From a virus: a DNA stretch of 43,468 bases. The notes under the pieces were generated by a model. It did no database searches. It saw only the letters and a program-made list of their open reading frames with translations, and had not been told where the DNA came from. Numbering within the stretch: the stretch's first letter is position 1; each line of letters opens with the position of its first letter. This document shows, one piece after another, positions 13,074 to 43,468 of the stretch. Made by a program: the position numbers and the translations under genes. The stretch spans positions 1 through 43,468 of IMG/VR virus record IMGVR_UViG_3300046804_003549; one strand, 5' to 3'.

Positions 13074-13701
13074 TTGGTACCGTTTGGGTCAAGTATTCAC
13101 TAATCTCTCTATGGTTAACAAACAAATCTTCTAGCGTCAGACCATAGTTGTTTGGGCTCCAATTGATGGTTGTTCCTGCTATGTGTTTAAGTTCGTCATA
13201 GTCTAAGCTTACATCAGTTTGAAATAAATTTACAATGTGATGCTCAAGTAGCCAACCTCCAATGATGTTGATATCAAAATCTACACGTTTGTCTATGTGT
13301 TTGAAATGTGCGTATTGTTGAGGATTGCCGCCATGGTGCGGCAAATTAGTAGAGTTAAATCGCTGCTCTAGTGTATTAGAATATTTCCAGAGATAATCAG
13401 ATATCCAATGATCTACTTTGTTTTTTCGAGTTAGTTGAACCGTGTGCCATTGTGCAAACTGTTCTTGATTGCCTACAAGATATATTTTAGGCACTACAGA
13501 ATTAAGAATCGCAATGGCATAACTGTTATATGTGGCAGTCAAGAATTGCGTATCGCTTACTTCGTCGAGATTTCTAACCGGCTTAGTTTTGCGTATATGT
13601 GCCAGTAGATTATTAGAAAGAAAATGGGTACCAGCTCGATAATTTGAGATTATTACTGTGCCAATTTTATTTGCATTCCAAAAATTGTTAATATTTGTCA
13701 T
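13057..13701 (-). CDS. Putative sulfotransferase-like protein, 214 aa
   Basis: The N-terminus contains GTVIISNYRAGTHFLSNNLL, a strand followed by a basic Ser/Gly-Thr loop and a helix. It resembles the 5'-phosphosulfate-binding loop (PRSGSTFL type) of PAPS-dependent sulfotransferases. The rest is mixed alpha/beta, with VVPKIYLVGNQEQFAQWHTV resembling the strand that positions the acceptor, and a C-terminal segment LTLEDLFVNHREISEYL. At 214 aa it is short for the family but within the range of phage versions. A sulfate donor step would fit an operon full of glycosyltransferases and a carbamoyltransferase. It might instead be another P-loop-like transferase, because a clear 3'-phosphate-binding motif is not evident. 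It overlaps radical SAM 7 by 17 nt. Confidence 0.5.
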   Translation of the reverse strand: MTNINNFWNANKIGTVIISNYRAGTHFLSNNLLAHIRKTKPVRNLDEVSDTQFLTATYNSYAIAILNSVVPKIYLVGNQEQFAQWHTVQLTRKNKVDHWISDYLWKYSNTLEQRFNSTNLPHHGGNPQQYAHFKHIDKRVDFDINIIGGWLLEHHIVNLFQTDVSLDYDELKHIAGTTINWSPNNYGLTLEDLFVNHREISEYLTQTVPNVNKK

Positions 13702-14602: not shown

Positions 14603-14936
14603 TTGTTTTTGTTCTCCAATATTGATGCTCATCATCCACAGCAACAACAATGCTAACATCCTGAGGATGACATGGTGTTCCTGTGGTGCTGGGCTGCAAT
14701 TTTTTGACAGGATTTGTGGCAAGTTCTACCAGCTGACCGTTGCGAATCCGCACACGCATACTGGCCCGTTGATACTGCTCAGGTGTTACATCAATGTAAT
14801 TACCTGGTCTGTCCTCTTGAGTGTAAAACAATGGAAAGCCTTGTTCATCATAATGCAGTCTCCAAAATATCACAGGAGGTTGATAAGGTTCCAAGTTGTT
14901 CCAAACTTGCCAAAAGTTTTCAGTGGTTTCATTCAT
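14589..14936 (-). CDS. Conserved phage-type hypothetical protein, 115 aa
   Basis: The likely start is ATG 14936 (MNETTENFW); an upstream in-frame ATG at 14954 adds six residues but lies deeper in the preceding gene. The protein contains VIFWRLHYDEQGFPLFYTQE, DRPGNYIDVTPEQY, a MRVRIRNGQLVEL strand pair, then GTPCHPQDVSIVV near the end. This order resembles small uncharacterised proteins I recall from aquatic T4-like phages, but no function is known to me. There is no signal peptide or membrane segment. It overlaps the glycosyltransferase genes on both sides (8 and 14 nt), so it is co-translated with them and may be an accessory subunit. That is inference. Confidence 0.75.
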   Translation of the reverse strand: MNETTENFWQVWNNLEPYQPPVIFWRLHYDEQGFPLFYTQEDRPGNYIDVTPEQYQRASMRVRIRNGQLVELATNPVKKLQPSTTGTPCHPQDVSIVVAVDDEHQYWRTKTNETN

Positions 14937-25900: not shown

Positions 25901-28900
25901 TGTGAAGGATTATCAACAATGTATTTGACAGCACCGCGGTCAAATACATAAGATGTTCCTGTGTTAGTGACTGTGTCTGAATCGTCGTTTTGGGCACCAA
26001 CAACAATCATTCTACCATTGTCAGTCTGAGCTATACTGCAACCAAATCGGGCATCTGGCTGTGCTGGAACTGTCAAGGTATCAACAAACTCAAACTGTGT
26101 TTTTGCAATTAGATCGATGTTTGCACCCGCGGTTGGAACAGTATTAAACACAATATCATTGGCATAGGCACTGTCGTTGTTGAAATCGTAATCAATAAAT
26201 GGCCGTTGCAATATTCCGTCTACAGTAACAGTAATGTCCCAAATGCTGTTTACAGCGTAAAGATATGGGTCAACTGGGAAAATATAGTTGGTGCCAATGC
26301 CGCTTCCGCTGGTGGTGTAAGAAACTATTCCTCCTGCTCCATCAACTTCAGCAATTGTAATAACAAGATTGTTGGCTGGGGCAGTAGGGCTTGCTGGTAA
26401 CGAATTATCTGTAGCAAGCAAGTCGCCATTGATGGTGACAGTATCACCAATAGCATAACCTGATCCAGCGGTTGTTACCGTGGCAAAATATTGACCACGT
26501 GTGTTCAAAATTGTAAACTTTGCGCCCAGGCCTGAGCCGGTGGTGCTATTTTGCACAACATCGTAGAAAATTTTAGAATCTAATTTTTGAGCTTGTTTGC
26601 GTTGAATGATCAAAGATTGGCCAGCTGGGGGCAAGTCGACCAATACTACACTGATTGCGTTTACAGTATAATCGTTTCCGTAGCTCAACAATTTGTTGTT
26701 GTATATAACAACCAGTTGTTCTGGCTGTGCTGTATCAATTTGTATACTTTGAGCATAGTTATAGATCTTAGTTAGGCCATCTGTTGTATAACGAACTTGT
26801 TGTAATTCAACATCGTTGCGAGCAAACGCATATACTTTGTTGTTTCCTGGTGCTCCAATAAACATCCAACGTTCATTTTTACTAACCGACACAGCATATC
26901 CAAATTCGCCAGCGCCAAAATCTTGATCTGGTGACACCAAAAGCTGACGCTGTTCAAAGGCATTGCTGTCTTCTGCTCGATATATTACACCAGCATAGCC
27001 CATGTTGGCATTAGACTTGCTGGCTCCAGCGGCAATCCAGCTTTGTTCACCAAGATCAACTGAGTTTCCATAGCCCAATGTGTCAGTGGCGCCAAGAAGT
27101 AAAATTGAATTTTCAGCGTATTGATTTGTAATGTCTTTGATATAGGAATATACCGCCCCAACAGATGGGGAACTTTCTGAAATTTTGTAGCCAGGTGCGC
27201 CTGCAACGGCTGCAATATTGTTTGTGCCTTGAGAAATACTGGAGCCAAGTCGGCTTTGATAAATGGGATTGGTTTGAGGAATATTTTTAGACTGAAGTTG
27301 TGTGAAAGGTGTTTGTTTTTCTAACACAGTCCATTTGCCAAATCCGTTGTTGTCTACCCAAGCTCTAGATCCCGAAGTCAATTCATTTGCATAGCTAAGA
27401 TTGATAACGTCACTGGCCTGAGACACACGCATGGTGCGTAATACCACAGCTATTCCATTGCCTGTAACATCGCGAGTAACGGTTAATTGAATAATTATTG
27501 TGTCGGCTGTGGGTGCGGCCAGTACTCTGTAAACTCCATCAATTTCTGAGTTGAAATATCTAATTACGATGATATTTCCAGCTATTAGATTATGTTTCTT
27601 GGTAAATTTTACAACGCTGGTGTTGTTTAAATTAGAACTTACTAATTCAACATACCCTGGAACTGACATGCAACGAAACACTCCCCAGTCGTAGGCATTT
27701 GTTTTGGCAGCCCAGATTGTTGTTCCAATTCCAATAGAATCTAAAACACCCGGTGCTAGTTGTGGTCTTGCATCCAGACTAAACACTGTGATGTCAACGT
27801 CATCAAGGCTGACATATCCTGCGGTGGGCAAAGCCGAATCTTGTACTGCTGTTGTGGTAGTAGGAAATACATTTGTGCTGGTAATTTTATAACTTTGTCT
27901 CCAAAGATCTGTATATAGAACAGTTTGATCGGCTTTGCTTTCTTCTCCCACATTGACAATTTGCACAACCGAAGGGTCTGCAAGCAAATCAGCTTCATTG
28001 AGTCTCAATTCAACAAAACTTTTGTTTGCGTTGGCTCCGTATGTGCCGCGAAGCACAGCCCAGTTCTCATAAAGATCGTATTCAGCAATTTCTTTGTCAG
28101 TTTTTGCATTGCCTATTAACTGAACTGATCTAATGGTTCCTTTATCTCTAAGGAACTGCTTGTATACATTGACTTGGCTAATATCGTCAAGATTCAACGC
28201 AGACATGTACTGTCTTGGTCTAAACCCTATCAGTCCGTATGCCATTAAATCCTGATCACTTTCAAGATTTGCGTCATTTATACTATAGCTATTGGCCAAT
28301 TGGTTGCTAAAGTTAGGTAAGTTTTGTAACATACCCCTTTGTATTTTTGTATAATCACTCTTGATCCAATCGTTGTAGTCAAAATTAATCTTAGGCTGAA
28401 CAATGGTCTGTGCAGACCAATAGTTGTTCTTGTAAAGAACAATTTCTCCCTTGGTATATTTTTTGTTCTGGCTCCATTCCTCAATTGTGGAATTGTCGTT
28501 GTATATAAAGCCACGTGCATCAAGTTGACCGTTCCAGCCTGAATTTATAATTGCTGTTACATTAACACGGCTCTGCCTTGCTCCTGTAATAGGATCATAA
28601 ATCAAATCATTGAACACACTGATATTGTCAAGAACTACCAAGCTTTCATAAGAAGTGTATTTGAGATCTAAATAACTGATAGTTTGTTCATTCATTGAAG
28701 ATACTTTGAAAATATTTTCAAATCTTTCAACAACCAGGTCTCTGACAGTAACTGTGGTTCTATTTTGATCTAGAATATTATTTTCAGGTGTTTGTGCTAC
28801 AATTTCATCAATGATTGCTTGATCTTTGTATGCGGTTAGGCTAAATGCAGTAGGGTTAAGATTAATAATAGCACCCGGTTCCCAGCCTTGGTTTGCCCAG

Positions 28901-31900
28901 TACAAAAATTCCTGCGCCATTTGTTGCCAGTTAAGATCATAGCCATTTTGTTTGTCGTTGAAAATCAATCCCTGAGTAGAAAGCAGTTCACCGTAACTCA
29001 ATAAGAAATCAACAACAACACTTTTATTGGTAAAAACATATCCATAAGGAATTTTAATCACTTGATCAGTGTATTGGTTTGGAACAGATATAGTTTCGCC
29101 CCCGGCAGTGATAGATGTTGTGGTCCCGTAGGGCTTGCTGGTTAAAATTTCAAAGTATGGGTTGTTAATACTGTATCCATACACTGCGTATCCGTTTTCC
29201 AACGTTTGAAAAATCACAGAACTGTAAATTATGCGGTCAAATGGTTGGTTTTTATACAGAAGTAAGTTGTAGCTGTTGTCGGGTAACAATAAACTTGAGT
29301 TCAAACTGTTGGGACTTGACTTTTCTGTGTAAATGTTGAGATATTGCTTGTCTGTGAATGCGCCCACACGATAGCAAAGTCTTACATCAAGACTCTCTAG
29401 ATCTTTGCTTAATTGATTGCTGCTGTTGATTCCAGCTTGTTGGTTATAATCCACAATCCAATCAATGTAACTGGCCTTGCTTGTTCCGTTGCCATAAACT
29501 TCAATGCCATTGGCGTCAAGACGATATCGATCATTGTAAAGATACTGATTGTAGTCTGTGTCAAATTTGTAAAGGTCTCGATCAACAAACAACGAAAAGA
29601 ATTCAGCTGGTCTCGTTAGAGCCAGCAATCTCATTAGTGCAAACGGATAACTAGAACTGCGTATCCAGGAATATTCTACTGGGCCGCCATCACCAAATAC
29701 CCAACTCTTTTGGAACTGGCTGGTATCATAAAATCCAACTACACTATCAAATGGACTTAGCAGTTCTCCTTCGGTACCAGTGGGTATTACTTCAGTAAGT
29801 TGCGGGCGAGCATATTCAGGGCGAAAATATTCTCCCGCTGGGTCAGCCACACGGCCTGCTGCAAGATCGTCCCAGAGCACTAAGTTATCACTGGTATAAG
29901 GTGCAGCGCCATAGACATCTTCCCACCAAGTAGGTTGAATACTAAATCCTAGCATTTCCCAGGGAGTAGTATTGGGACTGGTGGTATCATAGAACCAACG
30001 ATACAATCCTCTCCAAGCACCCACTGGCATAGGACTTTCATTTGGCCCAGTTAATTTGTTGCCAGTTGCAATGTAATTCCACGTAAATTCATTGGAAGCA
30101 GAGAAATCTTGTTCTTGATAATTTAGTTTGTTCCATCCAATCCAACTCAAGAAGTCAGAGCTCAGTATCTGATTAATTTCACTCAATGAATAGTCTGTTG
30201 TTCTAAACTGGCCGGGCACAACTTCTGTAGCAGACAGTGGTACGGCGCTTTTAATTTTTAAGTTGTTAAAAATTCTTTTTTCAAATTCTAACAAAAGTTC
30301 GTCACGGAAATCACCAAACGCCGCAGTAAGACTGCCATCATGACCCTGTATCATGACCTGAGGATTTACATAATTGGTGTCAACATAAATTTTTGGCACA
30401 AACGCAGGATACAATCCCAGTTTGGTGGGTGTGTTGGGAACAAAATTACCATACGTAGTTGGATATTCTCTAATGGTAACAGTATCACCCAGGACCAATG
30501 GAGAAATAATAGTAAGTCTAGGTCCATCATCTGAGACAATATAGTCTTTGTTGATAATCAACAATGTATCATTTACATATACCAATAGACCTTGATAATT
30601 TGAACTTGTAAAATTGTAGGTGCTAGATAAATCAAACACATTGGTGCTGATTGGTGTTATTTTACTAATTCGTTGAGTGTATACCGAACTAGCAGGTAAC
30701 ATGTCTGACCAGTAGAATGGTGAGGTTTGAGTTTTTCCTGAATTAATATCATTGATGACCGAAGTCAGCATGTCAGTAATTGTATAATTGGTATAGTCGT
30801 TACGAGTTGCTGTGTCCAATAATTGTGCTTTGAATTTTTCATATTCTCTGCTGTTATAAGACAATGCATTGAATATATTGTATTCATTGCTTCTCATAAA
30901 ATATCCAGCAAGAGTCATTGGAGCACTCTGTTGTAAAATGTTCTGACCGTAAGGAATTATATTACCAAGATCTCTAGAATTGTTAGCTCCGTTTATAGGG
31001 CCAACCAATTGTTTTAGATTTTGACCAATTGACTGATAGTGGGATCTGATTGTTCCCAGAGTAAACGTTGAACTGTTTCCATTGAGAGGATTGTTTTCTA
31101 AATTGTTCGGAACTTGATAAAAGGCAAATTTACTAACTTTGTCACTGAGAGCATCAACTTCGATCAATGATCCCAAACCGCCAAATTTATCAATACTGTT
31201 TAATACAATAGTGGTTGTGTCACCAGAAACTGCAACTGTATAATTGATTGGTTCGATAAAAATACCTGCTATGTACAATTGAACGGCAGGAAATACCGAT
31301 GTAATATCAACTGGTACGTCTAGCACCAGTGGTGACCCGTCGTATTCAAAACTAAATTGTTGTCTAACAATGCTTTTTGCCGCAGCAGGTTGCCATCCAA
31401 TTTCTTTAATAAAATCTGTTCTTGAACGATATTGACGGACGTAGCCCATGCTAATCATTTCAGTGGTAGAAACACTGTCTTTGGTATAAACAAAGGAATC
31501 TGTATAGAGATTGTTTTCAAAAACAATGTCGCCTACGTTGCTGAGACTGAGATACTTTAGAGGGAATCCCAGTACTGTGTCATCGGTACCTGTGCCAACA
31601 GCATAGGAAAACAATTTGCTACCTAAAAAGTTTGTTGATGGATATTTAGATCTATCTCCAAGGCTTGTACCCGATACGTCATAAACATCGAACAATGGTG
31701 CTTGGTTGGTTTCGGTTTTTTGTTGCGCAGGAAACCAAGTAATACCGTCAAAGTAAAAAGATTTACCTTGTTGAACAATGCCAGAAATGCAAACAACAGT
31801 TTGATTTACTAAGATTGTAGAATCATCAGCAGGCACTAAATTGATAATTGGTTCTGCAATTAGAGGTGGCACAGTGTCAGGAACAATAAATTCAACCTGA

Positions 31901-34116
31901 TAAATTTTATTTCTAACATTGGCATCAAGGTCTGCAGCAAAAATAACACGAGTACCATTGATAAATGAATATCCATCAATGCTGTAACCTACACTACCGT
32001 TGATTGTGCTCATTGCATCTGTGGCAGCAAAGTCAATGATGTTAATTGGTTGTTTGCCTTCGGTACCAAAGTTGAAAAGTCTGGTATTGGCTCTAAATTC
32101 AATGATGGGTCTTTTGGCTCTGTAATTGTTGTCCAATAGTGCCACAGTATTGTTGTAACCTGCGCTGGCATTGATAACATCAATGTGGAACCAGCGATTA
32201 CTTCTGGACCAAGCATTGCGATCTAGGCTTGCTCGATTGATAGTTAGATAGTCAGGAACCAGCGGCTGATTAAGGCTGGCATCATAATTGCCCACATCAA
32301 AGGGTGTGCTATCATAAGGTATTGTTGCGCTCTGTGTGTATGTTTCTGGGGTAATAAAATTGCCGACTGGTAATAGTGTAATTGCAGTACCCACACCCTC
32401 AACATAGTATGTGTTGTTTGCATAGGATTCAGGCACTACATTTCCAACAAAAGTTACTTTCAGTCCGTTGGTAAATTCTACAGCATTGGGACTGATGTAA
32501 TTCTTCTTGCCAATGATGTCAGCAACGTTGAGCTGTTCTTGATTGGTTTGATCAACCAATTCAATTCTGCCAAGAATTTCAGGATCTGTTCCGTCTTGAT
32601 AATACAGTGTTGATTTAACAGCAGTCAACAATGGAATTTGTTCAAACACAAAGCTTGAATTTTTGAACCACTGAGTGCTGGAATACACTGTTCCATATAG
32701 AATATCAAATTTCTGTAGTTTTTCTACTGACAAAAAACTGGTAAGCTTGATATATTTGATTTCGTCTATTGTTTCGTAGTTGGCTAACCAAACGCCGTAT
32801 CGCTGATTCTCTGGCACAGGAACTGATTCGTCAAACTCTTCGCCAAATCCACCGCCAATAACATTGTATTCCCAACCAGCCGCAGTTTCTTGAAACACTA
32901 GAGTTTTGCCGTTGATATTGGAAATGCCGTCAATTCCACCATAAGTGGCCACAAATAAATCAACAGGTATATTGTTTATTTGATTAAAGTTGAGATTGGT
33001 AATGAGATCAACCCCACGATTAGGCAAAGAATTATTGATGCTTTGCAACGAATAGTAAAAATTTTGATCCGTGGTCAACGGAACATTAAATGTTACTGTG
33101 CCAAGATCTTCGCCGTTGTTCACTACACCTAACACATCTCTACCACTGATGTTGGGTGTGTTAATTAAATTTCCACTGATACCAGGATCAACTTGAATCC
33201 AAAATCCAGGGCCGGTACCCGGTACCGCATCAACAATTTCTATTGTGCCCTTCATGTTTCTCTGTAGATCATTACAGTAGTAAAGAACGTCGGGTGCATC
33301 CTGTGGCACAGTGAAAGTGATTTTACCAGAAACGAGACCATTATTGGTGACGCCGTCAGTGTATTGATTAGTAGTTCCTAGGGTTGGCTCTGTTTTTATA
33401 TAAAACTTGTATTCGTTTCTAACCAATGTAAACACATAGGTATTGCCTCGAACCAATTTTAAAGTTGGGTTGTCTTCGTAATCAATAACAAATGCACTTG
33501 TACCTTTGCTGCTGACTCGAAAATTTACTGTTTCTTTGTCATTTTGAGAAACATCGAATTTGTATGTTCCACCACGGACCAATCTAATCACAGGATTGTT
33601 GCCTGTTTGATTACTGAAAGTATACACACCATCCTGTCTAGTAACTTCAAACGTATCTTGCAATGGAAGTTCGCCTGAAAATACATTTACAGCATCAGGG
33701 CCAGCAGGCAACCAGTAATATTGACTAAAGTTTGTAAATTTGTCTAGATCGACAAACGGATCCCAGGTATAGTAATCACTGGTATAGAGTCGATCAGCAT
33801 TGTTAGTATATCCGCCGGCTTGACCAACGGCATCAGTTATGCCAGGATATGTGATAGCATCCTGGACCTGATTGGTATCATATTTTTTTAATACCACGCC
33901 CGGCTCAAGTTGATAATTTGTTCTTACTGCGGTTGTTTCTTTGATGTATTCGTTGTTGGGATTGACGCCTGGGCCCACTCGACGGCCAACAAAACCTTGA
34001 ATTTTTGTAAAATCGGGCTCTTGAACAAGTTGGTCCAGAGTGGCCGAAAGAAATTGTTTATTTGTAGAAGTTTGAAAAATTTCAGGTAAAAATTCTACGG
34101 TTCTGACTCTCGCCAT
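19984..34116 (-). CDS. Giant virion structural protein, 4710 aa (baseplate/tail, after gp6)
   Basis: This single frame fills a third of the window. The N-terminus (FLPEIFQTSTNKQFLSATLD, then YQLEPGVV) matches my memory of the large structural proteins that follow gp6 in marine T4-like phages, the place of T4 gp7. Residues about 174-296 hold two cupredoxin-like segments (LVRGGTYKFDVS, LVRGNTYVF, LYYCNDLQRNMKG). Residues about 2290-3090 hold seven FG-GAP-like blades with GAP or GSP turns, consistent with a seven-bladed beta propeller carrying inserts. At least eight modules of the form VxVNGxxLxxGxDYTV...PxxGDxIxI are spread along the protein, and GAGYTEPPVVTVTG-type modules also occur. It starts 2 nt after gp6, behind GGAG. 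It probably forms baseplate periphery and host-contacting arms, which is inference. Confidence 0.88.
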   Translation of the reverse strand: MARVRTVEFLPEIFQTSTNKQFLSATLDQLVQEPDFTKIQGFVGRRVGPGVNPNNEYIKETTAVRTNYQLEPGVVLKKYDTNQVQDAITYPGITDAVGQAGGYTNNADRLYTSDYYTWDPFVDLDKFTNFSQYYWLPAGPDAVNVFSGELPLQDTFEVTRQDGVYTFSNQTGNNPVIRLVRGGTYKFDVSQNDKETVNFRVSSKGTSAFVIDYEDNPTLKLVRGNTYVFTLVRNEYKFYIKTEPTLGTTNQYTDGVTNNGLVSGKITFTVPQDAPDVLYYCNDLQRNMKGTIEIVDAVPGTGPGFWIQVDPGISGNLINTPNISGRDVLGVVNNGEDLGTVTFNVPLTTDQNFYYSLQSINNSLPNRGVDLITNLNFNQINNIPVDLFVATYGGIDGISNINGKTLVFQETAAGWEYNVIGGGFGEEFDESVPVPENQRYGVWLANYETIDEIKYIKLTSFLSVEKLQKFDILYGTVYSSTQWFKNSSFVFEQIPLLTAVKSTLYYQDGTDPEILGRIELVDQTNQEQLNVADIIGKKNYISPNAVEFTNGLKVTFVGNVVPESYANNTYYVEGVGTAITLLPVGNFITPETYTQSATIPYDSTPFDVGNYDASLNQPLVPDYLTINRASLDRNAWSRSNRWFHIDVINASAGYNNTVALLDNNYRAKRPIIEFRANTRLFNFGTEGKQPINIIDFAATDAMSTINGSVGYSIDGYSFINGTRVIFAADLDANVRNKIYQVEFIVPDTVPPLIAEPIINLVPADDSTILVNQTVVCISGIVQQGKSFYFDGITWFPAQQKTETNQAPLFDVYDVSGTSLGDRSKYPSTNFLGSKLFSYAVGTGTDDTVLGFPLKYLSLSNVGDIVFENNLYTDSFVYTKDSVSTTEMISMGYVRQYRSRTDFIKEIGWQPAAAKSIVRQQFSFEYDGSPLVLDVPVDITSVFPAVQLYIAGIFIEPINYTVAVSGDTTTIVLNSIDKFGGLGSLIEVDALSDKVSKFAFYQVPNNLENNPLNGNSSTFTLGTIRSHYQSIGQNLKQLVGPINGANNSRDLGNIIPYGQNILQQSAPMTLAGYFMRSNEYNIFNALSYNSREYEKFKAQLLDTATRNDYTNYTITDMLTSVINDINSGKTQTSPFYWSDMLPASSVYTQRISKITPISTNVFDLSSTYNFTSSNYQGLLVYVNDTLLIINKDYIVSDDGPRLTIISPLVLGDTVTIREYPTTYGNFVPNTPTKLGLYPAFVPKIYVDTNYVNPQVMIQGHDGSLTAAFGDFRDELLLEFEKRIFNNLKIKSAVPLSATEVVPGQFRTTDYSLSEINQILSSDFLSWIGWNKLNYQEQDFSASNEFTWNYIATGNKLTGPNESPMPVGAWRGLYRWFYDTTSPNTTPWEMLGFSIQPTWWEDVYGAAPYTSDNLVLWDDLAAGRVADPAGEYFRPEYARPQLTEVIPTGTEGELLSPFDSVVGFYDTSQFQKSWVFGDGGPVEYSWIRSSSYPFALMRLLALTRPAEFFSLFVDRDLYKFDTDYNQYLYNDRYRLDANGIEVYGNGTSKASYIDWIVDYNQQAGINSSNQLSKDLESLDVRLCYRVGAFTDKQYLNIYTEKSSPNSLNSSLLLPDNSYNLLLYKNQPFDRIIYSSVIFQTLENGYAVYGYSINNPYFEILTSKPYGTTTSITAGGETISVPNQYTDQVIKIPYGYVFTNKSVVVDFLLSYGELLSTQGLIFNDKQNGYDLNWQQMAQEFLYWANQGWEPGAIINLNPTAFSLTAYKDQAIIDEIVAQTPENNILDQNRTTVTVRDLVVERFENIFKVSSMNEQTISYLDLKYTSYESLVVLDNISVFNDLIYDPITGARQSRVNVTAIINSGWNGQLDARGFIYNDNSTIEEWSQNKKYTKGEIVLYKNNYWSAQTIVQPKINFDYNDWIKSDYTKIQRGMLQNLPNFSNQLANSYSINDANLESDQDLMAYGLIGFRPRQYMSALNLDDISQVNVYKQFLRDKGTIRSVQLIGNAKTDKEIAEYDLYENWAVLRGTYGANANKSFVELRLNEADLLADPSVVQIVNVGEESKADQTVLYTDLWRQSYKITSTNVFPTTTTAVQDSALPTAGYVSLDDVDITVFSLDARPQLAPGVLDSIGIGTTIWAAKTNAYDWGVFRCMSVPGYVELVSSNLNNTSVVKFTKKHNLIAGNIIVIRYFNSEIDGVYRVLAAPTADTIIIQLTVTRDVTGNGIAVVLRTMRVSQASDVINLSYANELTSGSRAWVDNNGFGKWTVLEKQTPFTQLQSKNIPQTNPIYQSRLGSSISQGTNNIAAVAGAPGYKISESSPSVGAVYSYIKDITNQYAENSILLLGATDTLGYGNSVDLGEQSWIAAGASKSNANMGYAGVIYRAEDSNAFEQRQLLVSPDQDFGAGEFGYAVSVSKNERWMFIGAPGNNKVYAFARNDVELQQVRYTTDGLTKIYNYAQSIQIDTAQPEQLVVIYNNKLLSYGNDYTVNAISVVLVDLPPAGQSLIIQRKQAQKLDSKIFYDVVQNSTTGSGLGAKFTILNTRGQYFATVTTAGSGYAIGDTVTINGDLLATDNSLPASPTAPANNLVITIAEVDGAGGIVSYTTSGSGIGTNYIFPVDPYLYAVNSIWDITVTVDGILQRPFIDYDFNNDSAYANDIVFNTVPTAGANIDLIAKTQFEFVDTLTVPAQPDARFGCSIAQTDNGRMIVVGAQNDDSDTVTNTGTSYVFDRGAVKYIVDNPSQNTFTLPVGFAEPVAVIVNGEYLQNSANFVNGQFSIVGSTVTVDVALNVGDIVEIENNIFTLVQKIQSGQPYDQSAFGAALDICPTNCSLYIGAPLDGTVQTQAGSVQRMVNQSRLYGVITSTNANPVLTAGDNIRINDQLVSVPSVPNNTVQGLSIAINQSGIPNVSSSVANGLLTINTINIEAATEFNKLLVLPGTVGSAFDSLGFNIYAYAQTINSPNPTVGANFGSALTVSTDATTLIVGAPSGNVVEPVVFDSGTTYFDDRSTSYFNLEQNSGVVYSYDFLPSAHSSVDNPGKFVFGQQIYDYEVEPLDQWGAAVSYVNGRLLVGSPGSDLGDSAVDFGRIGVFENTTNRPAWYPIHVQVPVANSELFNSVFMYNQLDSGRTHFFDFINPLQGKILGAARQNIDYIGSDDPAKYNAGSVNNDGNYWANNKIGEIWWDISSVRFIDPLQNNITYISRRWAQIFPGSRVDIYQWTESAVSPSQYTGPGTPKDTTSFTVRSVLNQQGIFETKYYFWVTNIDQIDNTAGKTLSTVGIARYIENPRSSGIPYIAPIDASTIAIYNGLEFLSASDTIIHIGYDREFNNDNIHTEYELIAQDNPDSFLSANLYRKLQDSFCGVNSAGAAVPDVSLSIAEQYGVQYRPRQSMFADRFTALNNYLTYANSVLLMFPIVESRTFILLNSSEPEPTAASGEWNMRLANIQELSYQDLNEVSVGYRYLIISDSNNGGLWTIYQVEQTTGVLGGQKYTQLVRVQNYDTRKYWQHIDWYATGYNSSIVPLFEVPNFSALATVEFSTPVGGSVKVTTNAQGKFEIYQRTLTGWDRVGLQDGTIEFKEELWNYSLGRFGFDVEVFDAQYFDAEPVIETRKIIQAINEELFIDDLAIYRNKALILTFNFVLSEFKAPGWLTKTSLIDVNHKIRELLPFQIFRQDNQDFVLDYIQEVKPYHVQIREFNLIYNGQDQYDGNVTDFDSPSYYNRLLEIPQYVNPVLLPYAKSNAVGTGTPSSIADTPSDAEIWTEWPWSNWFNNYLLSIEQVEIIDGGAGYTEPPVVTVTGDAVSPAVLQAVINSAGKVVAIDVIDPGEGYSTTAVITISEGNGLGARAYAIMGNSLVRSIKTTIKYDRTEYNSTIVDWQANVEYLQDTQVRYNNKVWSANSTVQSTEFDPEQWTQVPASTLSGVNRTMGFYTPFVNEPGLQLPLLVDGVEYPGVQVAAVDFNQDTGFDIGNFDINPFDNISYGPEGQPTYDPAILDAIYESPYLDPFLGTRPTDINVDGGAYIDTYSSFAPEELVPGSEFDTLDFRVYTRPGADWTSNGHGFKSYSFGVDIESLPATYDLSVWFNQIPYLVSFGFSNQNTGVELIEAVNYTIDWETKTVTIVSGCNIGNTVIGIAYGVGGGNQLYRQNYAGNRIVNNQITVPVEYQQIQEVDVWVNGVPYTGLTYVAGPNNTTVVTFNDTFTVSDFVVVYVLGPTTIGSTTVNYSWSTPVTQTIIADGSSTLFELDNSLEYTNPANIIVLANGQRLRTAAGIEYYADGSSAYLLPDRLGFSQSLIADNEVLVYINDIPQVLGVDFTVEPYTGDTRHVVFTSTPATGERILISVTTNTQARVTGGQYLFIDTTLGYTPILGDIIEVITWNDTRQQNILTSVYVGPVSSGAVVTEGYDTTDFDAASLSDTPGSFDYAAGIVVQNNDLFLTRPTINPDKLWITLNGSQLFYGENFTIVNEEIILASGLLQVNDVVIITEFTNSITPDAMAFRIFQDMRGVQATYRITENSTTTLSQPLESGDDIIYVDDASNLDEPSLEKNIWGVLTINGERIMYRNRDTVNNTVSSLRRGTAGTAIADHNPGSYVYALGQGQIMPAEFQNYIDSNYFVGNGSTVQFDATNISFNDNDSTLEIDAVEVYVGGTRVTDGYTLLGANPVSVEFDVAPADGVGITILVRRGVTWYAPGAGTPSNGVALQDTDTQAARFLRGI

Positions 34117-34117
34117 A

Positions 34118-37100
34118 TTAAATTACTCCACTCCCAGGTGCTGTTCTTAGATTGGTGCTGGTCAATGCTTCAATCACTTCAATATTATTTACTGTCGCTG
34201 CATTTACAAAGATTTGGTTGGGAGCTGATCTTATTTCGTATAGATCACCAAAACTCTTTTGAGGATCCAGTGGAACTAACACTACCGAACTAATTACTCC
34301 TTGCAATTGATCATGCAAGTAAGAAGCTAGTTCTGAGAAGTAGAATGTGTCTCCAAAATCCCACTTATCAATGCTGAAATACTGATTGAGATAGGTCACC
34401 ACAAGGTTTTTAATTTCACTGACACTTGCAGTGCTGTTAAATGCCTTGATCACTTTGATCGTTGCTCTCAGTGTTGGGTCTGCCTTGTTGCCAAACAATG
34501 GTTTAAATTCAACAGAATTTAAAATCACAGAGTCTGAAATCATTTTATAATCTTGCAGTCCTTGATAGGCATTGGTTAACTCATTTATTGTTGGTGGAAT
34601 AGGTTCAGGAACAGTTCCTGTCACGTCTTGAACATAATTGCGATATGCTGTGTAATACTGAGCCGTTACCACATAGATATCGATAATGTTGGTTGTACCA
34701 GGGTCAAGTCTTGATGTTAATGGACTATTGTGTCGATACTGAAAATAAAGGTCTTGACGACCAGTTCTTGCCAGCCACGAGTTGCTGACATCCACTAATG
34801 TTCTTAAACCAGTGACAGGGCTAACTGTTAATTGATAAAACAATTCGCTTTGGTATGCATAAAATATCTGACCTTTAACAAACTGCTCCTTGATCAATTC
34901 AATGGCAGTTAGGTCAGGGTAGTCTGAGTTTACTCTCCCTTGTTCTACCAAAAGATAACGTTCAAGATTGTCAAAATCCACAGTCTTTTCCAAGAACACA
35001 AGTTTTGCAGTTGGATTAATCTCTGGAGCAACAATTTCATTGAAAAAATCTGGATTGTCTGGTACCCCGTCGGCATCAGCGTCGCTGAAGCTAACCAAGA
35101 CTTGAAAATCGTCGACATAGCCATCGCTGAGTACAGGTTGATCAACAATGGTTAACCTGGTATCTTCTGACAATGGTAGTGCACTGTCTGGTTTGCTATT
35201 GGTTTTTAGAATATTGATAAAATCTCTAATTACTGTTCCTGTGCGACTGTCATAAATTTTCTCTGGTCCATAAAAGAAGAATCGTGTTTGCAATACAGAT
35301 CCAAACACATAATTAAGCGCACGTGATGTTACTGTGTAAGTGCTGCCGTTGGTAACAAATTCTACCAACCAGCTGGCATCAAGATTGGTTCCGCTGGTAT
35401 TACCTGCATTTGACAAACTAAACTGAGAATCTTGTGCTAGATTTGTGGATGTAATTACATACCAATTTCCTGGAGTACCTGTCACAGTGCCAATGCTGTC
35501 GTACCCGATGCCAAAGTTTCTATTCAGCAAAATTTGGTCAGACATTTGTGTTTCAACTGACAAAGGCAAATCTGTTTTAAAAATTGGTATGACTTCGGTT
35601 GCAATGGCGCCAGTGGGCACAAAATTATTCAACGACACTGGCCCAATACCGCTGGCAAAGTTGCCTTGTCCTTCGTTGGTTCCGTCGAGATATATTTTGG
35701 TAGGGCTAGCCCATATCACTAGTTTTTCATCTGGTCGAACAGGTACGCCAGGTTTGAGTCGGTTATTGATGTCAAAGAAAAATCCTGGCGGCGGAACAAA
35801 TTTAACAAGACTTTCAACAGTGATGTATTTTGTATTGCTACTGCCAGTGCCTACTATTACTGGATTTCCAATAGAGTTTTTAAAATATCCAGTGGTAGTA
35901 TTAGAAATGCTTGTGCTCTGATTCCAACTAATGTTCAAAGATACCAAACTTGGTCTGGGGAATTCGCTGTAATAAAATTGCTGCATCAAGCTCTGTGCCA
36001 ACAGCGGCTGAATTTGATTTGCAATAACATTGGCAACCTCATTGTTGGTTGTGTAGGTAAATTGAAAGCTTGGAGATTCGTAGTTTTCATACAACGCCCC
36101 GTCACTACCAAACACATTAGTAGATGCGTATTTTCCTGTGCTATCAATCAACTCAAGGTATCTGCTGGTACCGATAGAAGCACGATTTAACGCCTTGCTT
36201 TTTAAAATAGAATTATATGTGGTGAAAGGAAAATTGTTGTAGTCTTCTCCGTTGACCATGCGATTCTGTGTGTAATAACGAGCAGGAGCACGTTGTTTGA
36301 TTTCTTCAATGCTCTCACGTGGTTGAGCGTTGGACACAGGTGTGGTAATGCCACAAGTAAATGTAATAGTTTCCAACTGTCCGGTGCGACTAACGTAACT
36401 AATGGGAATTACAACACTCTGCATTTCTTCAGGATTAATAATGTATTGTAATCCGTTGCTGGCACGAACATACATGCGAAAGATTCCAACTGGAATAGCA
36501 CTGAATACGCCATCGCCAAAATTTAGTGTAATTTGATCGTTTGTTCTGCTGGTGATAGAAAACAGTTTTCGCACACCAGGATCAGTTTGTTCGGCAGCGG
36601 CTGCATAAACGCTTTCTACAAATTTCCATTCGCTGACAACAGTGCCAACATCGTCAAGTTGATACAACCAATGATCTTCGTTGTTGCACCCTTCAATATT
36701 GATAGCAACGGTTCTATTGCTGACTCGATCAGCAAGATTAAAGTCTTGACTTTGTAATACGCCTTGCTTGAACAAAAAGAAGTAACCAGTGTTTGCAGAA
36801 TTAAATCCCAAGCTGTCGTTACGGAATAAGATATTAAATTCTCCATTGGGCTGTGGGCTTGGTTCGTATACGTAGTTTTTGTTAATGGTAGACGCATTGA
36901 CTGCTTCAAACGGCATGCTTATGCCGTCTACTGTAGAAGTATAAGGAATTACTGGCAAAAATCCTGGCACCAAATTAACAGTGTATTCAGCAGTATCTAT
37001 GCCCAGTATGTTGGTTCTATTAGCAGGTCGCCCAATACGTTGACTGCTGACCAAACTAGCATTGATGACTGCTGCAAACTGTTCTTGCCAACTGAAGTTA

Positions 37101-37543
37101 GTGGGATCGGCCCAATTAATAGTTACATTGGATAAGTTAATTCCATTGATGTCCGTGACATTTTCTGTTGTGGTCACTGAAAAAATCTTTAAAAAACCCG
37201 ATGCAGCGGTGTTACGCTTGGGTGTGTAACTTATCAAATTGGCCAGGCGAACCACTGAGTCTCTACGCTCTGCTGTATCAATGTAGTTTTCTCTGGCATT
37301 TAAGTCGTTGCGAAAGGCCAAGCTTTGACCCATAAATGCAATGACGTCCAGCAAAGCAATAAATTCTGAGCTTTCAATGTAGTCATTGAAAGTTTCAGGA
37401 TAGTACAGACGAAGGTAATCAACAAAACTTTTTCGCAGAGTTTCAAAGTCATAGCTCTGAAAATCTGCTTCTCGATAAGTCTGATAGATTCTTTTCCAAT
37501 CTTCGACCCCAAATATAGCGGTTTGTCTAGTAGTCTTAGCCAT
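34118..37543 (-). CDS. 6: Baseplate wedge protein gp6, 1141 aa
   Basis: The N-terminus (DFQSYDFETLRKSFVDYLRL, YYPETFNDYIESSEFIALLD, then AFMGQSLAFRNDLNARENYI) is the characteristic start of T4-like gp6. The C-terminus (WDFGDTFYFSELASYLHDQL, SSVVLVPLDP, NQIFVNAATVNNIEVIEAL) also fits. In T4, gp6 forms the inner ring of the baseplate with gp7, gp25 and gp53 and drives the baseplate shape change. At 1141 aa it is much longer than T4 gp6 (660 aa); the extra length lies in the middle. A consensus late promoter TATAAATA sits 19 nt before the ATG. The gene lies between gp25 and the giant protein, the expected order for this phage group. Confidence 0.93.
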   Translation of the reverse strand: MAKTTRQTAIFGVEDWKRIYQTYREADFQSYDFETLRKSFVDYLRLYYPETFNDYIESSEFIALLDVIAFMGQSLAFRNDLNARENYIDTAERRDSVVRLANLISYTPKRNTAASGFLKIFSVTTTENVTDINGINLSNVTINWADPTNFSWQEQFAAVINASLVSSQRIGRPANRTNILGIDTAEYTVNLVPGFLPVIPYTSTVDGISMPFEAVNASTINKNYVYEPSPQPNGEFNILFRNDSLGFNSANTGYFFLFKQGVLQSQDFNLADRVSNRTVAINIEGCNNEDHWLYQLDDVGTVVSEWKFVESVYAAAAEQTDPGVRKLFSITSRTNDQITLNFGDGVFSAIPVGIFRMYVRASNGLQYIINPEEMQSVVIPISYVSRTGQLETITFTCGITTPVSNAQPRESIEEIKQRAPARYYTQNRMVNGEDYNNFPFTTYNSILKSKALNRASIGTSRYLELIDSTGKYASTNVFGSDGALYENYESPSFQFTYTTNNEVANVIANQIQPLLAQSLMQQFYYSEFPRPSLVSLNISWNQSTSISNTTTGYFKNSIGNPVIVGTGSSNTKYITVESLVKFVPPPGFFFDINNRLKPGVPVRPDEKLVIWASPTKIYLDGTNEGQGNFASGIGPVSLNNFVPTGAIATEVIPIFKTDLPLSVETQMSDQILLNRNFGIGYDSIGTVTGTPGNWYVITSTNLAQDSQFSLSNAGNTSGTNLDASWLVEFVTNGSTYTVTSRALNYVFGSVLQTRFFFYGPEKIYDSRTGTVIRDFINILKTNSKPDSALPLSEDTRLTIVDQPVLSDGYVDDFQVLVSFSDADADGVPDNPDFFNEIVAPEINPTAKLVFLEKTVDFDNLERYLLVEQGRVNSDYPDLTAIELIKEQFVKGQIFYAYQSELFYQLTVSPVTGLRTLVDVSNSWLARTGRQDLYFQYRHNSPLTSRLDPGTTNIIDIYVVTAQYYTAYRNYVQDVTGTVPEPIPPTINELTNAYQGLQDYKMISDSVILNSVEFKPLFGNKADPTLRATIKVIKAFNSTASVSEIKNLVVTYLNQYFSIDKWDFGDTFYFSELASYLHDQLQGVISSVVLVPLDPQKSFGDLYEIRSAPNQIFVNAATVNNIEVIEALTSTNLRTAPGSGVI

Positions 37544-37561
37544 AGTAATCCATTATTGTTT

Positions 37562-37569
37562 TATTTATA
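37562..37569 (-). promoter_or_regulatory. T4-type late promoter (TATAAATA) before gp6
   Basis: The minus strand reads CTATAAATAAAA here, an exact copy of the T4 late consensus TATAAATA recognised by the gp55-type late sigma factor. It lies in the short gap between the gp25 remnant and gp6, with a predicted start point some 6 nt downstream and the gp6 ATG at 37543. It should drive gp6 and the genes behind it late in infection. Confidence 0.8.
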
Positions 37570-37588
37570 GAAACTAAAAACGGCGTAG

Positions 37589-37708
37589 TTAAACGTAGCT
37601 GGCAGATCGTGTGTTCTGGTCAAAGAATATAGCCAGGCGTTGGGGTTCTGTACTGGGTACAAAAATCAATTCGACCTGCAGAAGGATGCCGTTCTGTTGT
37701 GGGAAAAT
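37589..37708 (-). pseudogene. 25: C-terminal remainder of gp25 behind an in-frame TAA
   Basis: Directly after the TAA that closes the 84-aa gp25 frame, the same frame continues for 39 codons without a stop: IFPQQNGILLQVELIFVPST, then EPQRLAIFFDQNTRSASYV and TAA. This is what the last part of a gp25/GPW-family protein should look like (a strand pair QNGILLQVELIFV and a final LAIFFDQNT strand). No ATG, GTG or ribosome binding site fits an independent start at the break. The full frame would give about 124 residues, close to T4 gp25 (132). The interruption is either a base substitution, an assembly error or a read-through stop. Confidence 0.8.
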
Positions 37709-37963
37709 TTAAATGTTAGAAATTTGCAAACGAGGGTCACCGCCGGCAACTCGCTGAATTTCGTTTATTAGTGCCTGATCTGTTTCGTTGCTTTGATTTT
37801 CAAACAAGTTGTCCCAGATAATGGTTCCAACTTGCGGCCGGCCAGGTATCTGCCCTTGACGTATGTTAAGAGCATTTAATAAATCTCTTTTGATCAATGC
37901 GGCATCAGTCAATGTAAATTTTTTATATTGACCTTGTGTGTTAAATCCAATAAAAGCAGGCAT
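37709..37963 (-). CDS. 25: Baseplate wedge protein gp25, N-terminal 84 aa (interrupted)
   Basis: MPAFIGFNTQGQYKKFTLTD, followed by an ALIKRDLLNALNIRQGQIPG helix-turn and TIIWDNLFE...EIQRVAGGDPRLQI, is the recognisable core of the gp25/W lysozyme-like (GPW_gp25) family. In T4, gp25 joins the wedge to the inner baseplate and is essential for assembly. The frame stops at TAA 37711-37709, in the middle of the usual fold, while the missing C-terminal strands are encoded in the same frame just downstream. The gene lies 8 nt after the gp5-like gene and shares its transcript. If the stop is real and not read through, the protein would lack its final beta strands. Confidence 0.9.
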   Translation of the reverse strand: MPAFIGFNTQGQYKKFTLTDAALIKRDLLNALNIRQGQIPGRPQVGTIIWDNLFENQSNETDQALINEIQRVAGGDPRLQISNI

Positions 37964-37971
37964 GACTGTAT

Positions 37972-40407
37972 TTAACCTTTGTTGGATCCTGGAGCAAAGC
38001 GGAACAAACCGTTTTCGTTTTCATTGGTAATTGTTACTGGAACCCTGACAATCGAACCATTGGGCTGTATTATAGATGTTGTGTTCTGTGTGGGGTCTTC
38101 CACTGCTGCAGAAATTTCAGTGTATTGAGGTATCGGAACTTTGGGGTTCCCAATTATATCAGCCACAGCTTGATCAATCTCAGTTCTAGTTGCTTCAAAC
38201 GGACCAGTTGGCACAGTATCTAGTAGATTTATATCTTGATTGTAATAATCAGCAAAATCAATGGCGTATTGGCCCTGTCGTGCTGTGATAGACAGTTCAG
38301 ATTGCAGTTGACTGCTGGCGAACCCGTCTGCCCATTGAGTCACTGCATCTACCCCGTAGGTAGTAGCAGGTTGAACAAATGTTGCAGTGTATGATGGCGG
38401 CTCGTCGCCCTTTAAAACGCCTCTTTCTGTTAGCCCAGTATATGCGGCCAACAACAGTCCAACTTGCACAACATTTTGCAAAGTTTTGTTGTTGAGATAA
38501 TCATTGATGGTATTGATGCCGTACTGTCCTGTCCAGGTTGAAGGTGACTTTAACACAGCATCTGGCGAAACACCAGATGCTATCAAATTCAATGCTGCAG
38601 GATTGACCAGGCCAGAAGACACTAGGCCGCCGACCTGTTGTCCATAAACGCCAATGCCGCGAGTTGGACTGCCTAGCTCGGTGCCCACATAAACTGGGTC
38701 GTTGCTTTCGTTTAGTTCCCAACCTGGATATAAATTACCATCGTCGTCATAGGCCCCGAATCTACCGGCATAATCTGCAGCAGTTTGTGCGGTCATCACT
38801 GTTACCTGAGATGTTGACAAGGTGCCTACCGCAACTGGTGACACTGGTTCGCTAACAACTTGTTCCAAGGTAACTGGATGTTGAACCGGCAATGATCGGA
38901 CCTGTGTATAAATTTGTCCTGTTGCCGAATTTGAATCAGGAATTGTAACATCAATGGGATTTAGATTTATATTGACATTTGCACCTTGACTTTGATTTGC
39001 AAATGGTTGGTGTGTGGGTGCGCGAGTTACTGTTGTATCTAACTTATCAGGTATGGACGTCCAGCCACGACCAGTCACGTATTCAGTATCAGGTAATTTC
39101 ACAGTTGGCACCGCAGGTGCGTCAGGAACCGAAGCCGCTTGAGCACCGTTGAGATTTATCAGTGATGCTTTCAAGTTCAACTGAGATGAACTTTTTATTG
39201 AAGCAAATTTTCCTTGAAGTCCTAGAGTGCCGTCGCTGCGAAGTCCCAGAAATTGCTTTGACGATACCAGTGTAAGTTTTTCGCTGTTTAAGAATAAGTT
39301 TTCTGAACTGTCTATCAACATTGATTTTTTGGTTTTTACCCTAAATGTACCGCCACTGTACATATTGATTCCTTGGTCTGCATGAAAATTCAACACACCT
39401 TTGGTTCTAAGGTTTATAGAGTTGGTAGAGAAAACATCAACTGTGCCTGCCTTGCCGAATTCTAACCAAGTTTGTCCATTGGCATGTGTGATAAAAAATG
39501 CATCGCCGTCGTCACTCATGGTAATTTGATGACCTTTGGCAGTGCGGATGCGAATCAATGTGTCCTTGCCGTCAATGTCACCGTCGTCCATTACAAAGGT
39601 ATGGCCGCCTTGTCGTCCAATCACTGCAATGTCTTGTAGCTTGACCTGTCCTTTTTCCAAGGCCTGTTTAAAAGTTCGATCGTTGTACCCGCCTTGATAG
39701 ATGGGTTTGCCTGGTGTAGAAATACCATAACAGTTGCTGGGGCTTTCACGTTGTGCACTGCTTTTTATTGGGCCACGAATAGGATCTCTATTCAATCCTT
39801 GCTGAAATAGCACTGCTTCCACAGTCGATTGCACAGGTTTTTTCTGATCAAAAAATCTAGGATTGTCAGTGATTTTGGGATCAATATCGTTGATTTCTGT
39901 GACCGGTGCAGCAGGTGTGTCGGTTAAAAGTTGTTGTTGAATATTATTGTTGGGTGCATAGTTAGAGCTTGCACCAATGGCAGGAATCATATGGTTGAGG
40001 CCGTCTTCGGGGATGCAACCAATATAATATCCCCCCATGGCCGGGTCGCCTGACACAAAGAAGCACAAAACTTGTGTGCCAAGTTCAGGTGGAGTGAACC
40101 ACATGCCGTAACTGTTGCTGTTACCCGGATAAGATCCTGCGCCCGAATTACCGCTTTGTTTTGTAGCTCCGTAAAATGGACTGCAATATCTCACAGTTCT
40201 CCAAGTGGAAGGATCGTCAAGTTTGGGACTTCCATCTAAGTCAGTTGCACCAAACTGCTGAATCCAAACTTGTAAACGACCTGATCGTGTATTGTCGACG
40301 TTGTTGACCACAATGCCAATGTAAGGGCCCATTTCCACAGGCGTGCCGCCGCGGTCAAATTTATACTCTTCTGGCCGACCTCTGTTGCGTTCTGTATTCT
40401 CTGCCAT
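37972..40407 (-). CDS. 5: Baseplate hub/central spike protein, gp5-like, 811 aa
   Basis: The N-terminus (GPYIGIVVNNVDNTRSGRLQ, VWIQQFG, then WRTVRYCSPFYGAT and LGTQVLCFFVSGDP) is the OB-fold domain of gp5/VgrG-type hub proteins. From about residue 260, GGHTFVMDDGD, KGHQITMSDDGDAFFITHAN and repeated VDVFSTNSINLRTKGVLNFH strands form the beta-helical spike. The T4 gp5 lysozyme domain that normally lies between these parts is not visible. A C-terminal extension of about 300 aa contains SPSTWTGQYGINTINDYLNN, LQNVVQVGLLLAAYTGL, a helical motif I recall from baseplate proteins of aquatic T4-like phages. It is the piercing device of the tail. The ATG overlaps nothing; the preceding gene ends 3 nt before it. 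Confidence 0.87.
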   Translation of the reverse strand: MAENTERNRGRPEEYKFDRGGTPVEMGPYIGIVVNNVDNTRSGRLQVWIQQFGATDLDGSPKLDDPSTWRTVRYCSPFYGATKQSGNSGAGSYPGNSNSYGMWFTPPELGTQVLCFFVSGDPAMGGYYIGCIPEDGLNHMIPAIGASSNYAPNNNIQQQLLTDTPAAPVTEINDIDPKITDNPRFFDQKKPVQSTVEAVLFQQGLNRDPIRGPIKSSAQRESPSNCYGISTPGKPIYQGGYNDRTFKQALEKGQVKLQDIAVIGRQGGHTFVMDDGDIDGKDTLIRIRTAKGHQITMSDDGDAFFITHANGQTWLEFGKAGTVDVFSTNSINLRTKGVLNFHADQGINMYSGGTFRVKTKKSMLIDSSENLFLNSEKLTLVSSKQFLGLRSDGTLGLQGKFASIKSSSQLNLKASLINLNGAQAASVPDAPAVPTVKLPDTEYVTGRGWTSIPDKLDTTVTRAPTHQPFANQSQGANVNINLNPIDVTIPDSNSATGQIYTQVRSLPVQHPVTLEQVVSEPVSPVAVGTLSTSQVTVMTAQTAADYAGRFGAYDDDGNLYPGWELNESNDPVYVGTELGSPTRGIGVYGQQVGGLVSSGLVNPAALNLIASGVSPDAVLKSPSTWTGQYGINTINDYLNNKTLQNVVQVGLLLAAYTGLTERGVLKGDEPPSYTATFVQPATTYGVDAVTQWADGFASSQLQSELSITARQGQYAIDFADYYNQDINLLDTVPTGPFEATRTEIDQAVADIIGNPKVPIPQYTEISAAVEDPTQNTTSIIQPNGSIVRVPVTITNENENGLFRFAPGSNKG

Positions 40408-40410
40408 ATT

Positions 40411-43400
40411 TTATCCTGGGTTCCCATCTTTAACCATACGTTGCGATCCGTTGCCACCGTTGCCCGGAACTGGTGTTCCTGAAGTATCTCTAATGCCTGG
40501 TATTACTGTGCCCGAATAATTGTTTGTGCCAGCTGCAAATGCCGCTCGAGCTGCATCCAGAGCTGCCTGTGGGGTAGCTCCATTTTTTCTTGCTTGTATA
40601 TACACAGGACTAGCCGTGAGTTGACTCAAAGTAGGATCGCTGAGTTGTGAGGGAGGTCTCAATATTTGTTGAGTGCCAATTGCCAAAGCACTTTGCGGGT
40701 TTGGATCTGTGATAAAAGTTGGTCGAGCCCAGGCAGGTGTTTTCGTTACTGCCGGGGCAGCCACTTGAGTGGCATTGGTTATACGTGCAGTTTGCTCAGG
40801 GGGTCGGCGTCCTTCACCACGACCTGGAGGATAATAAGTCATTAGACTTCCTTTGAGGTTTTGAATAAACTTTCCGCGTTCAAATATACTGGTGCATTCT
40901 TTGGCAATGTAAATTCTACTGAATTGAGCAGGACCTGGGGTTTTTGTCTGTTGGTCAATTTGAGTAACAGTGTTTAATTTATCTGCTGTGGGTTGAGCCA
41001 GGCCAGTGGCTAGATTATAATCTCTAGGCGCATTGAATGCGATTTCAAACAGTATCTGTTGAGCATCAAAATTGATGGTTCCATCAGCCAAAAATGATTG
41101 AAAGTAATTGGGATCATTTTTATTCAGTGCAACCCAGGCTTCTCCTTGCTGTAACCAAGCAGGATCTCCCACAATGGTTACATTTGCCTCTTTAAGGTCA
41201 CTGGGGCTGTAGAGTTGGTCAGCTGCATTAGCAGCAGGTTCTTGAGTCTTGGGGTTAGCACCACCTTGTGTACTTTGTCCGCTGGCAGTGGTAGGCAAAA
41301 ATTTTAATTGTTCGTTGATATTCAATGCGCCTTCGCTTGAGCTGGTGACTCCACCTAGGTTAGTGTTTGTTAATGCAATATAGTATAGATTGTTGAGACT
41401 TTCTTCGTAGCTAATAACTTCGGTGTTTTCGCCAGTGAACCAGTATTTGTATTGTTTGTGAACACCTCTGAACACAGGACTCTTGAAATAGGGCGAATTC
41501 AATTGACTGATTAAAAAAGGCGATATTGTATAGGTAATTTTGTAAGCATAATCATTGCGAATTTCATCATACTTGTCAAGCATGGGAACTGCTTTGAATC
41601 CAATTCGATACCAAGTGGTGTTTTTTAGATTTCCTCCTGCACCGGGTCGGCTTATACCAGTTTTATTATCAACAATTTGTGTTTGTTGATCTCTAACATA
41701 GCTGCTACGACGTAAAACACCATCAATGAACTGCACAATTTGTTGCCCGGCAATAGCGCCTCCAATTTGTGTGTTAACGTCCATGCTTTGTTTAATAGGT
41801 AGTTTTTGATCAGCGGCAGTGCCAGGTTGAGCCATGGATGTGGATCCTTTGTCAAGGCCTGGATTTACGATTGTAGCATTGGCCATGGTATCCAACACAA
41901 ATTCAATGTTGTATTCATCTGGATGTTGAACAGTACCAGCTTTCACACACTGAGCTTGCCATTCATTCAGCCGTTGCATAAGTCCTGTTCGTACTGTGGG
42001 CTTGGGTGTTGGTATTGCATTGGCATTGGCAGGCGGGCGTGTGATTGCAGGATCAGTGCCAGGCCGCACATAAGGTGTAACTATACCAGTTGCAGGATCT
42101 GATATGTATTCAACTTCGGTCTGCGCTGCTGCTCTGGTGGTGGCCGCTGCCGTGGCCGCAGGAGATCCTGCCGACACTGCTGATTGTCCAGCTGAATAGG
42201 TATCTGGACCAGCCAAAATGTCTTTGACTGTTTTTCCGCTGAATTCCATGTTGTATGGAATACTGGCTCTACCTTGCCCTCCATTGATAACGTAGGGAGG
42301 TGCCTTGAATTGTATGTCGTATTCAACAGCTTTGTTGGCAATTCTAAATCCAAATTTGGTAACCACCAATGGATAGAATTTTTCTACAAATGCGTTGGGA
42401 TCACTGGTCTGATTGGCACTGGTGCCGCCTCGGACCAAGTTGCCTTGCTGATCGTACCCATAGAATTTGATTACTAGTAAATAAATTTGACTGGCAAAAT
42501 TTCTCCTATTTCCTGTGTTAGAAATTCCAAAATACTTTGTTGTTGCTGCTTCAAGATTCTGTAATAAACTTATGCCATTGGGCTCAATAACAGTCATCTT
42601 TACTTCTTTGACATTGTGTGCCAATCGTGTGCCACGCCCGACAAAAAAACTTTTAAGTTCTATTTTGTCAATGTAATAGTCTAGACTAAAAAAGTCAGCA
42701 CGACCCGAAGCTGATGCACCACCAGTTTGCATTAATAATGCAGCGTCGCTTAGATTCTTGGATCCTGTGTTTAAGATGCGCTGATAATTTTTACTTTCAA
42801 TGAGATACAAGCTGGCTTGATAACTGTAACTGGCATACTGACTCAACACATTATTTCTTGCAACAATTTTTTCTGTCCAATCAATGGCATTCAATGAAGA
42901 CACTAGTTCTTGTGCTCCACGATCGTCGCTGGCAGCACCTACACCTATTCTTGATGATCCTGGGACTGCATTCCTACCATCTCGAACACTGTCTGAAGTT
43001 GATGCCGCTGTTGGACCAAAACTTTGGCCGTCAGCGGTTGCTGAAATTTGATTTGGTGGAGCTTGAGTTTCACTAAGTGGGCGTGTTCTGTCGTTGACCC
43101 CAATGTCAATTACAACATCTCTTTGAAACCTTAATGCATTGGATTGTGTGTTAGTGTCAGGCGGTAACTCGACCCGTCCGTTTTGTAATACTAGGATTTG
43201 GCCGGGCGGATCAACCGGGTTGGAATTGTTGCCTCTAGCAGCCTGATCGTCACGGGCTATGTCGCCTGAACTATTGATTGCTTGCAATGATTCTATTTCT
43301 AAGACCACTGCACGTATTCTTGCATTAAGGTCTTTGATCTGAGGCAGTAGGTTTTTTTCGCCAGCTTCGTATCTGTCGCCTAATGCATTTCTTTCGGCCA

Positions 43401-43443
43401 CCAATCTTTGATATTGGATTTCGAGGTCAACAAGATTGGACAT
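40411..43443 (-). CDS. Baseplate-hub-like virion structural protein, 1010 aa
   Basis: Residues 1-55 are predicted coiled coil (LVDLEIQYQRLVAERNALGD, then LLPQIKDLNARIRAVVLEIE). A Pro-, Ser- and Ala-rich linker follows. The beta-rich FFSLDYYIDKIELKSFFVGR, VKEVKMTVIEPNGISLLQNL and QIYLLVIKFYGYDQQGNLV segments recur in hub-associated structural proteins of large marine myoviruses. A second such pair sits after a long linker (YIAKECTSIF, FIQNLKGSLMTYYPPGRG). The C-terminus is disordered-looking (PGNGGNGSQRM). The gene lies just upstream of gp5, so a hub role is likely. Cyanophage annotations use names such as VrlC for large proteins in this position; I cannot verify that equivalence. Length and linkers argue against an enzyme. 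Confidence 0.72.
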   Translation of the reverse strand: MSNLVDLEIQYQRLVAERNALGDRYEAGEKNLLPQIKDLNARIRAVVLEIESLQAINSSGDIARDDQAARGNNSNPVDPPGQILVLQNGRVELPPDTNTQSNALRFQRDVVIDIGVNDRTRPLSETQAPPNQISATADGQSFGPTAASTSDSVRDGRNAVPGSSRIGVGAASDDRGAQELVSSLNAIDWTEKIVARNNVLSQYASYSYQASLYLIESKNYQRILNTGSKNLSDAALLMQTGGASASGRADFFSLDYYIDKIELKSFFVGRGTRLAHNVKEVKMTVIEPNGISLLQNLEAATTKYFGISNTGNRRNFASQIYLLVIKFYGYDQQGNLVRGGTSANQTSDPNAFVEKFYPLVVTKFGFRIANKAVEYDIQFKAPPYVINGGQGRASIPYNMEFSGKTVKDILAGPDTYSAGQSAVSAGSPAATAAATTRAAAQTEVEYISDPATGIVTPYVRPGTDPAITRPPANANAIPTPKPTVRTGLMQRLNEWQAQCVKAGTVQHPDEYNIEFVLDTMANATIVNPGLDKGSTSMAQPGTAADQKLPIKQSMDVNTQIGGAIAGQQIVQFIDGVLRRSSYVRDQQTQIVDNKTGISRPGAGGNLKNTTWYRIGFKAVPMLDKYDEIRNDYAYKITYTISPFLISQLNSPYFKSPVFRGVHKQYKYWFTGENTEVISYEESLNNLYYIALTNTNLGGVTSSSEGALNINEQLKFLPTTASGQSTQGGANPKTQEPAANAADQLYSPSDLKEANVTIVGDPAWLQQGEAWVALNKNDPNYFQSFLADGTINFDAQQILFEIAFNAPRDYNLATGLAQPTADKLNTVTQIDQQTKTPGPAQFSRIYIAKECTSIFERGKFIQNLKGSLMTYYPPGRGEGRRPPEQTARITNATQVAAPAVTKTPAWARPTFITDPNPQSALAIGTQQILRPPSQLSDPTLSQLTASPVYIQARKNGATPQAALDAARAAFAAGTNNYSGTVIPGIRDTSGTPVPGNGGNGSQRMVKDGNPG

Positions 43444-43444
43444 G

Positions 43445-43468
43445 TCAGAATCCCAACACTTCTTGTAA
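43445..43468 (-). CDS. C-terminal tip of an upstream gene (cut by window edge)
   Basis: The minus strand at the right edge reads LQEVLGF followed by TGA (43447-43445), 1 nt before the ATG of the 1010-aa gene. This tight spacing fits the end of another structural gene outside the window. Only seven codons are visible, so neither reading frame nor identity can be confirmed. Confidence 0.35.
   Translation of the reverse strand, partial: LQEVLGF

Follow-up and report, generated by a model that had tools for sequence, protein, structure and literature searches.

The gp25-like baseplate wedge gene in the window, i.e., the whole stretch of 43,468 nucleotides that we analyzed, is interrupted by an in-frame TAA codon created by a single-base substitution private to this contig, and this substitution is probably an error of sequencing or assembly that entered the consensus. 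None of the other contigs searched has the substitution, and an otherwise identical one (IMGVR_UViG_3300043446_003960; L002/L078, from sample 3300043446, 10,356 bases, hereafter L078) carries the gene intact. Since no other base differs between the two over a shared stretch of 8,403 bases, the stop represents either an error or a stray dead mutant; it is not special biology, and the phage baseplate gene that it interrupts is of an ordinary kind. Of these two origins, an error appears the more likely. The gene, its interruption and its two neighbors are as follows.

37709 to 37963, minus strand: gp25-like baseplate wedge gene, 5' part, 84 codons plus the internal TAA (PF04965, phrog_43)
37709 to 37711, minus strand: internal TAA, whose first base, 37711, is the sole difference from L078 in 8403 bases
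37589 to 37708, minus strand: 39 codons in the same frame, encoding the C-terminal beta strands, and then the usual terminal TAA; protein same as in L002/L078
34118 to 37543, minus strand: gp6-like baseplate wedge gene, downstream of gp25, open frame (phrog_10646, E 4.6e-286)
37972 to 40407, minus strand: baseplate hub or tail lysozyme-like gene, upstream of gp25, open frame (phrog_13211, E 1.1e-29)

Translation of the minus strand from 37963 to 37589 showed a frame that begins with ATG and comprises 84 sense codons, TAA, 39 sense codons and a terminal TAA. The initial annotation had placed an in-frame stop at 37711-37709 within gp25, and both the stop and its coordinates are right. Without the internal TAA, the frame would encode a protein of 124 amino acids.

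The identity of the gene was examined by profile searches. The 84 residues encoded ahead of the stop match phrog_43, "baseplate wedge subunit," with an E value of 1.8e-6, and Pfam PF04965 (GPW_gp25) weakly, with an E value of 7.6e-4 that falls under the curated cut-off. Both matches lie over the N-terminal helical part of the family. When the match was extended across the stop, the E value for phrog_43 became 6.8e-9 and the aligned profile positions went from 13-83 to 13-113. This lengthening, together with the presence of the same segment in the relatives, bears out the earlier proposal that the 39 codons after the stop encode the missing C-terminal strands. Those strands are absent from the window product after residue 84 but present in L078 and in the relatives, and the segment at 37589 to 37708 is homologous in all relatives that extend this far. 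The intact copy of L078 also matches T4 gp25 in the PDB (5iw9, 5iv5; E 3e-4). The position of the gene between the hub/lysozyme-like and gp6-like genes is as expected for a contractile-tail baseplate module.

Other features of the window were noted beside this module. A single open frame of 4710 codons at 19984-34116, on the minus strand, adjoins the gp6-like gene and perhaps encodes a giant tail protein. Further to the left, seven genes in one run at 2251-13073, on the minus strand, match radical-SAM PHROGs.

2251-3630, 4044-5249, 5246-6493, 6490-8058, 8055-9314, 9304-10644 and 11682-13073, minus strand: genes matching radical-SAM PHROGs

This run lies near a Nol-like carbamoyltransferase at 1-1126 and looks like a large set for one phage neighborhood.

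We compared the window base by base with L078, which overlaps it at 35066-43468. The two contigs agree at 8402 of 8403 bases, and they differ solely at 37711, where the TAA begins. In L078 the site is a sense codon within a complete gp25 frame of 124 amino acids, confirming the earlier statement that one base change restores the gene and indicating that a nearly identical phage, recovered in a separate record, has a whole gp25. An IMG/VR scan with the 43-base neighborhood of the site, leaving base 37711 open, found only L078, again with the sense codon. For the left part of the window, two scans for contigs of the same phage yielded only relatives whose protein identity did not exceed 93%, and private substitutions can therefore be counted only over 35066-43468.

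To look beyond the same phage, IMG/VR was scanned with the 84 residues that precede the stop, a query unbiased about the stop itself. None of the 76 related contigs recovered, L078 being one of them, has a stop at the homologous codon, which specifies Glu, Gln, Val, Asn, Asp or Ile in all of them. The relatives run on in frame to the same C-terminal segment, usually ending in ...ASYV, with the exception of one locus (L036) whose retrieved DNA does not reach that far. Stricter recounting across the retrieved loci gave the same result. The site is thus not a conserved recoding site.

It is possible, if less likely than an error, that a recent and real nonsense mutation is present in part of the phage population, yielding an 84-residue fragment and particles that are either defective or survive by mixed infection. 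A single substitution in an otherwise intact and conserved gene is what such a mutation would look like, and the existence of a nearly identical phage with an intact copy makes complementation possible. Nevertheless, a structural-gene mutation that is lethal would not be expected to become the consensus in a sample, there are zero other substitutions between the two contigs in 8403 bases, and the stop occurs in none of the relatives. A random single substitution here would create a stop in approximately 4% of cases, or in 8% if it is a G:C to T:A change, figures that do not discriminate between an error and a mutant because the case was picked for being a stop.

If the stop were real, its product would most likely be non-functional, judging from a structural model. 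An AlphaFold2 model of the intact copy, built with 15 sequences, has a mean pLDDT of 65, the C-terminal half being better, and places strands at residues 79-89, 92-101, 107-115 and 120-123. As the stop falls inside the first of these strands, the 84-residue product would lack most of the sheet according to this moderate-confidence model. Foldseek searches with the same model of moderate confidence returned no match under an E value of 0.001; a contractile-injection baseplate chain, 9gtp, ranked 15th with a probability of 0.98 and a TM score of 0.58. gp25 has been described as the wedge protein that starts sheath polymerization and is needed for baseplate assembly (PMC4604203), and the gp25-like protein HsiF is essential for type VI secretion (PMC3352280). 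By analogy with published findings, which concern T4 and type VI secretion, gp25 would be essential here as well.

We asked whether interruption extends beyond gp25 by comparing each window gene with the C-termini of its homologues, which was done for the 18 genes with close relatives. gp25 was the only one with a large C-terminal loss, its homologues running on for a median of 40 residues. The next largest overhang was that of the gene at 13706-14722, on the minus strand, whose relatives run a median of 10 residues beyond its stop. The genes at 3527-4057, 6490-8058 and 13057-13701, with no relatives at 55% identity or more, lay outside this comparison, as did the 4710-amino-acid frame, the gene truncated at the left end of the window and that at 40411-43443. 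The comparison of homologue C-termini was clean, whereas looking for stops by alignment to every six-frame ORF of the relatives gave too much noise, since ORFs in the wrong frame or on the antisense strand also align. Stop usage was then counted in the 22 other complete genes of the window, which end in TAA (10 genes), TGA (11 genes) or TAG (1 gene). The initial annotation had judged wholesale TAA reassignment unlikely, and the normal use of TAA at the ends of 10 of these genes is in agreement with that view.

These data bear on the idea that full-length gp25 is made by read-through of the TAA, whether by means of a suppressor tRNA, an altered code or leaky termination. The frame after the stop is indeed open and conserved, and a suppressor tRNA gene might lie in a part of the genome outside the record. 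However, the stop is absent from the relatives, even from the near-identical L078, the other tested genes are uninterrupted, and TAA ends other genes. A search for suppressor tRNA genes had been suggested; the window, itself a genome fragment, yielded no tRNA gene, and neither did L078 or 25 related loci. Likewise, RNA folding at the site of the stop is no better than that of shuffled sequences (z = 0.02). Stop-free relatives, intact frames in the other genes tested, normal TAA ends and the lack of a tRNA gene or an unusual fold in the sequences searched make recoding or reassignment very unlikely, and we discarded both. That the stop is real and suppressed by something elsewhere in the genome or in the host, resulting in a reduced level of gp25, is less probable still. 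Thus, of the three origins initially offered for the stop, an error and a recent mutation are both supported by the intact L078 copy and the absence of stops from the 76 relatives, while evolved read-through is not.

Least probable of all is a true pseudogene whose role has passed to another gp25 gene in a different part of the genome, a situation raised in the initial annotation and conceivable in that the record is a fragment, but unsupported, since a search of the 43-kb record found a single gp25, the decay amounts to one base in a gene otherwise identical to the intact copy, and the gene lies between the hub and gp6 genes, where a functional baseplate gene is expected.

With a consensus error as the preferred explanation, the gp25 of the phage population would be ordinary and intact, with 124 residues, and homology predicts for it a part in building the baseplate and initiating the contractile sheath. 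The case matters mainly for the annotation of metagenomic phages. Before a nonsense codon seen in a single contig is taken as evidence of recoding or of a pseudogene, other assemblies from the same population should be consulted; in the present instance, the comparison with L078 alone goes most of the way to an answer.

Isolated consensus errors or rare nonsense variants occur in metagenome-assembled viral contigs, and the present case resembles them in affecting one base, in one contig, with an intact copy elsewhere. With respect to the GPW_gp25 family (PF04965), which includes the type VI secretion proteins TssE/HsiF, the gene is alike in sequence, including to T4 gp25 itself, and is likewise flanked by a gp6-like wedge gene and a hub gene. 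The family has a conserved EPR turn that joins the helix to the first strand. An EPRL motif has been described in this family, and the Glu of its EPR was reported to be essential in the type VI homologue HsiF1 (PMC3352280). Where the family has EPR, the window gene has DPR at residues 76-78 (37730-37738, minus strand), a conservative change of Glu to Asp found in all listed relatives too. The other difference from the family is the one interrupting TAA, in this contig only.
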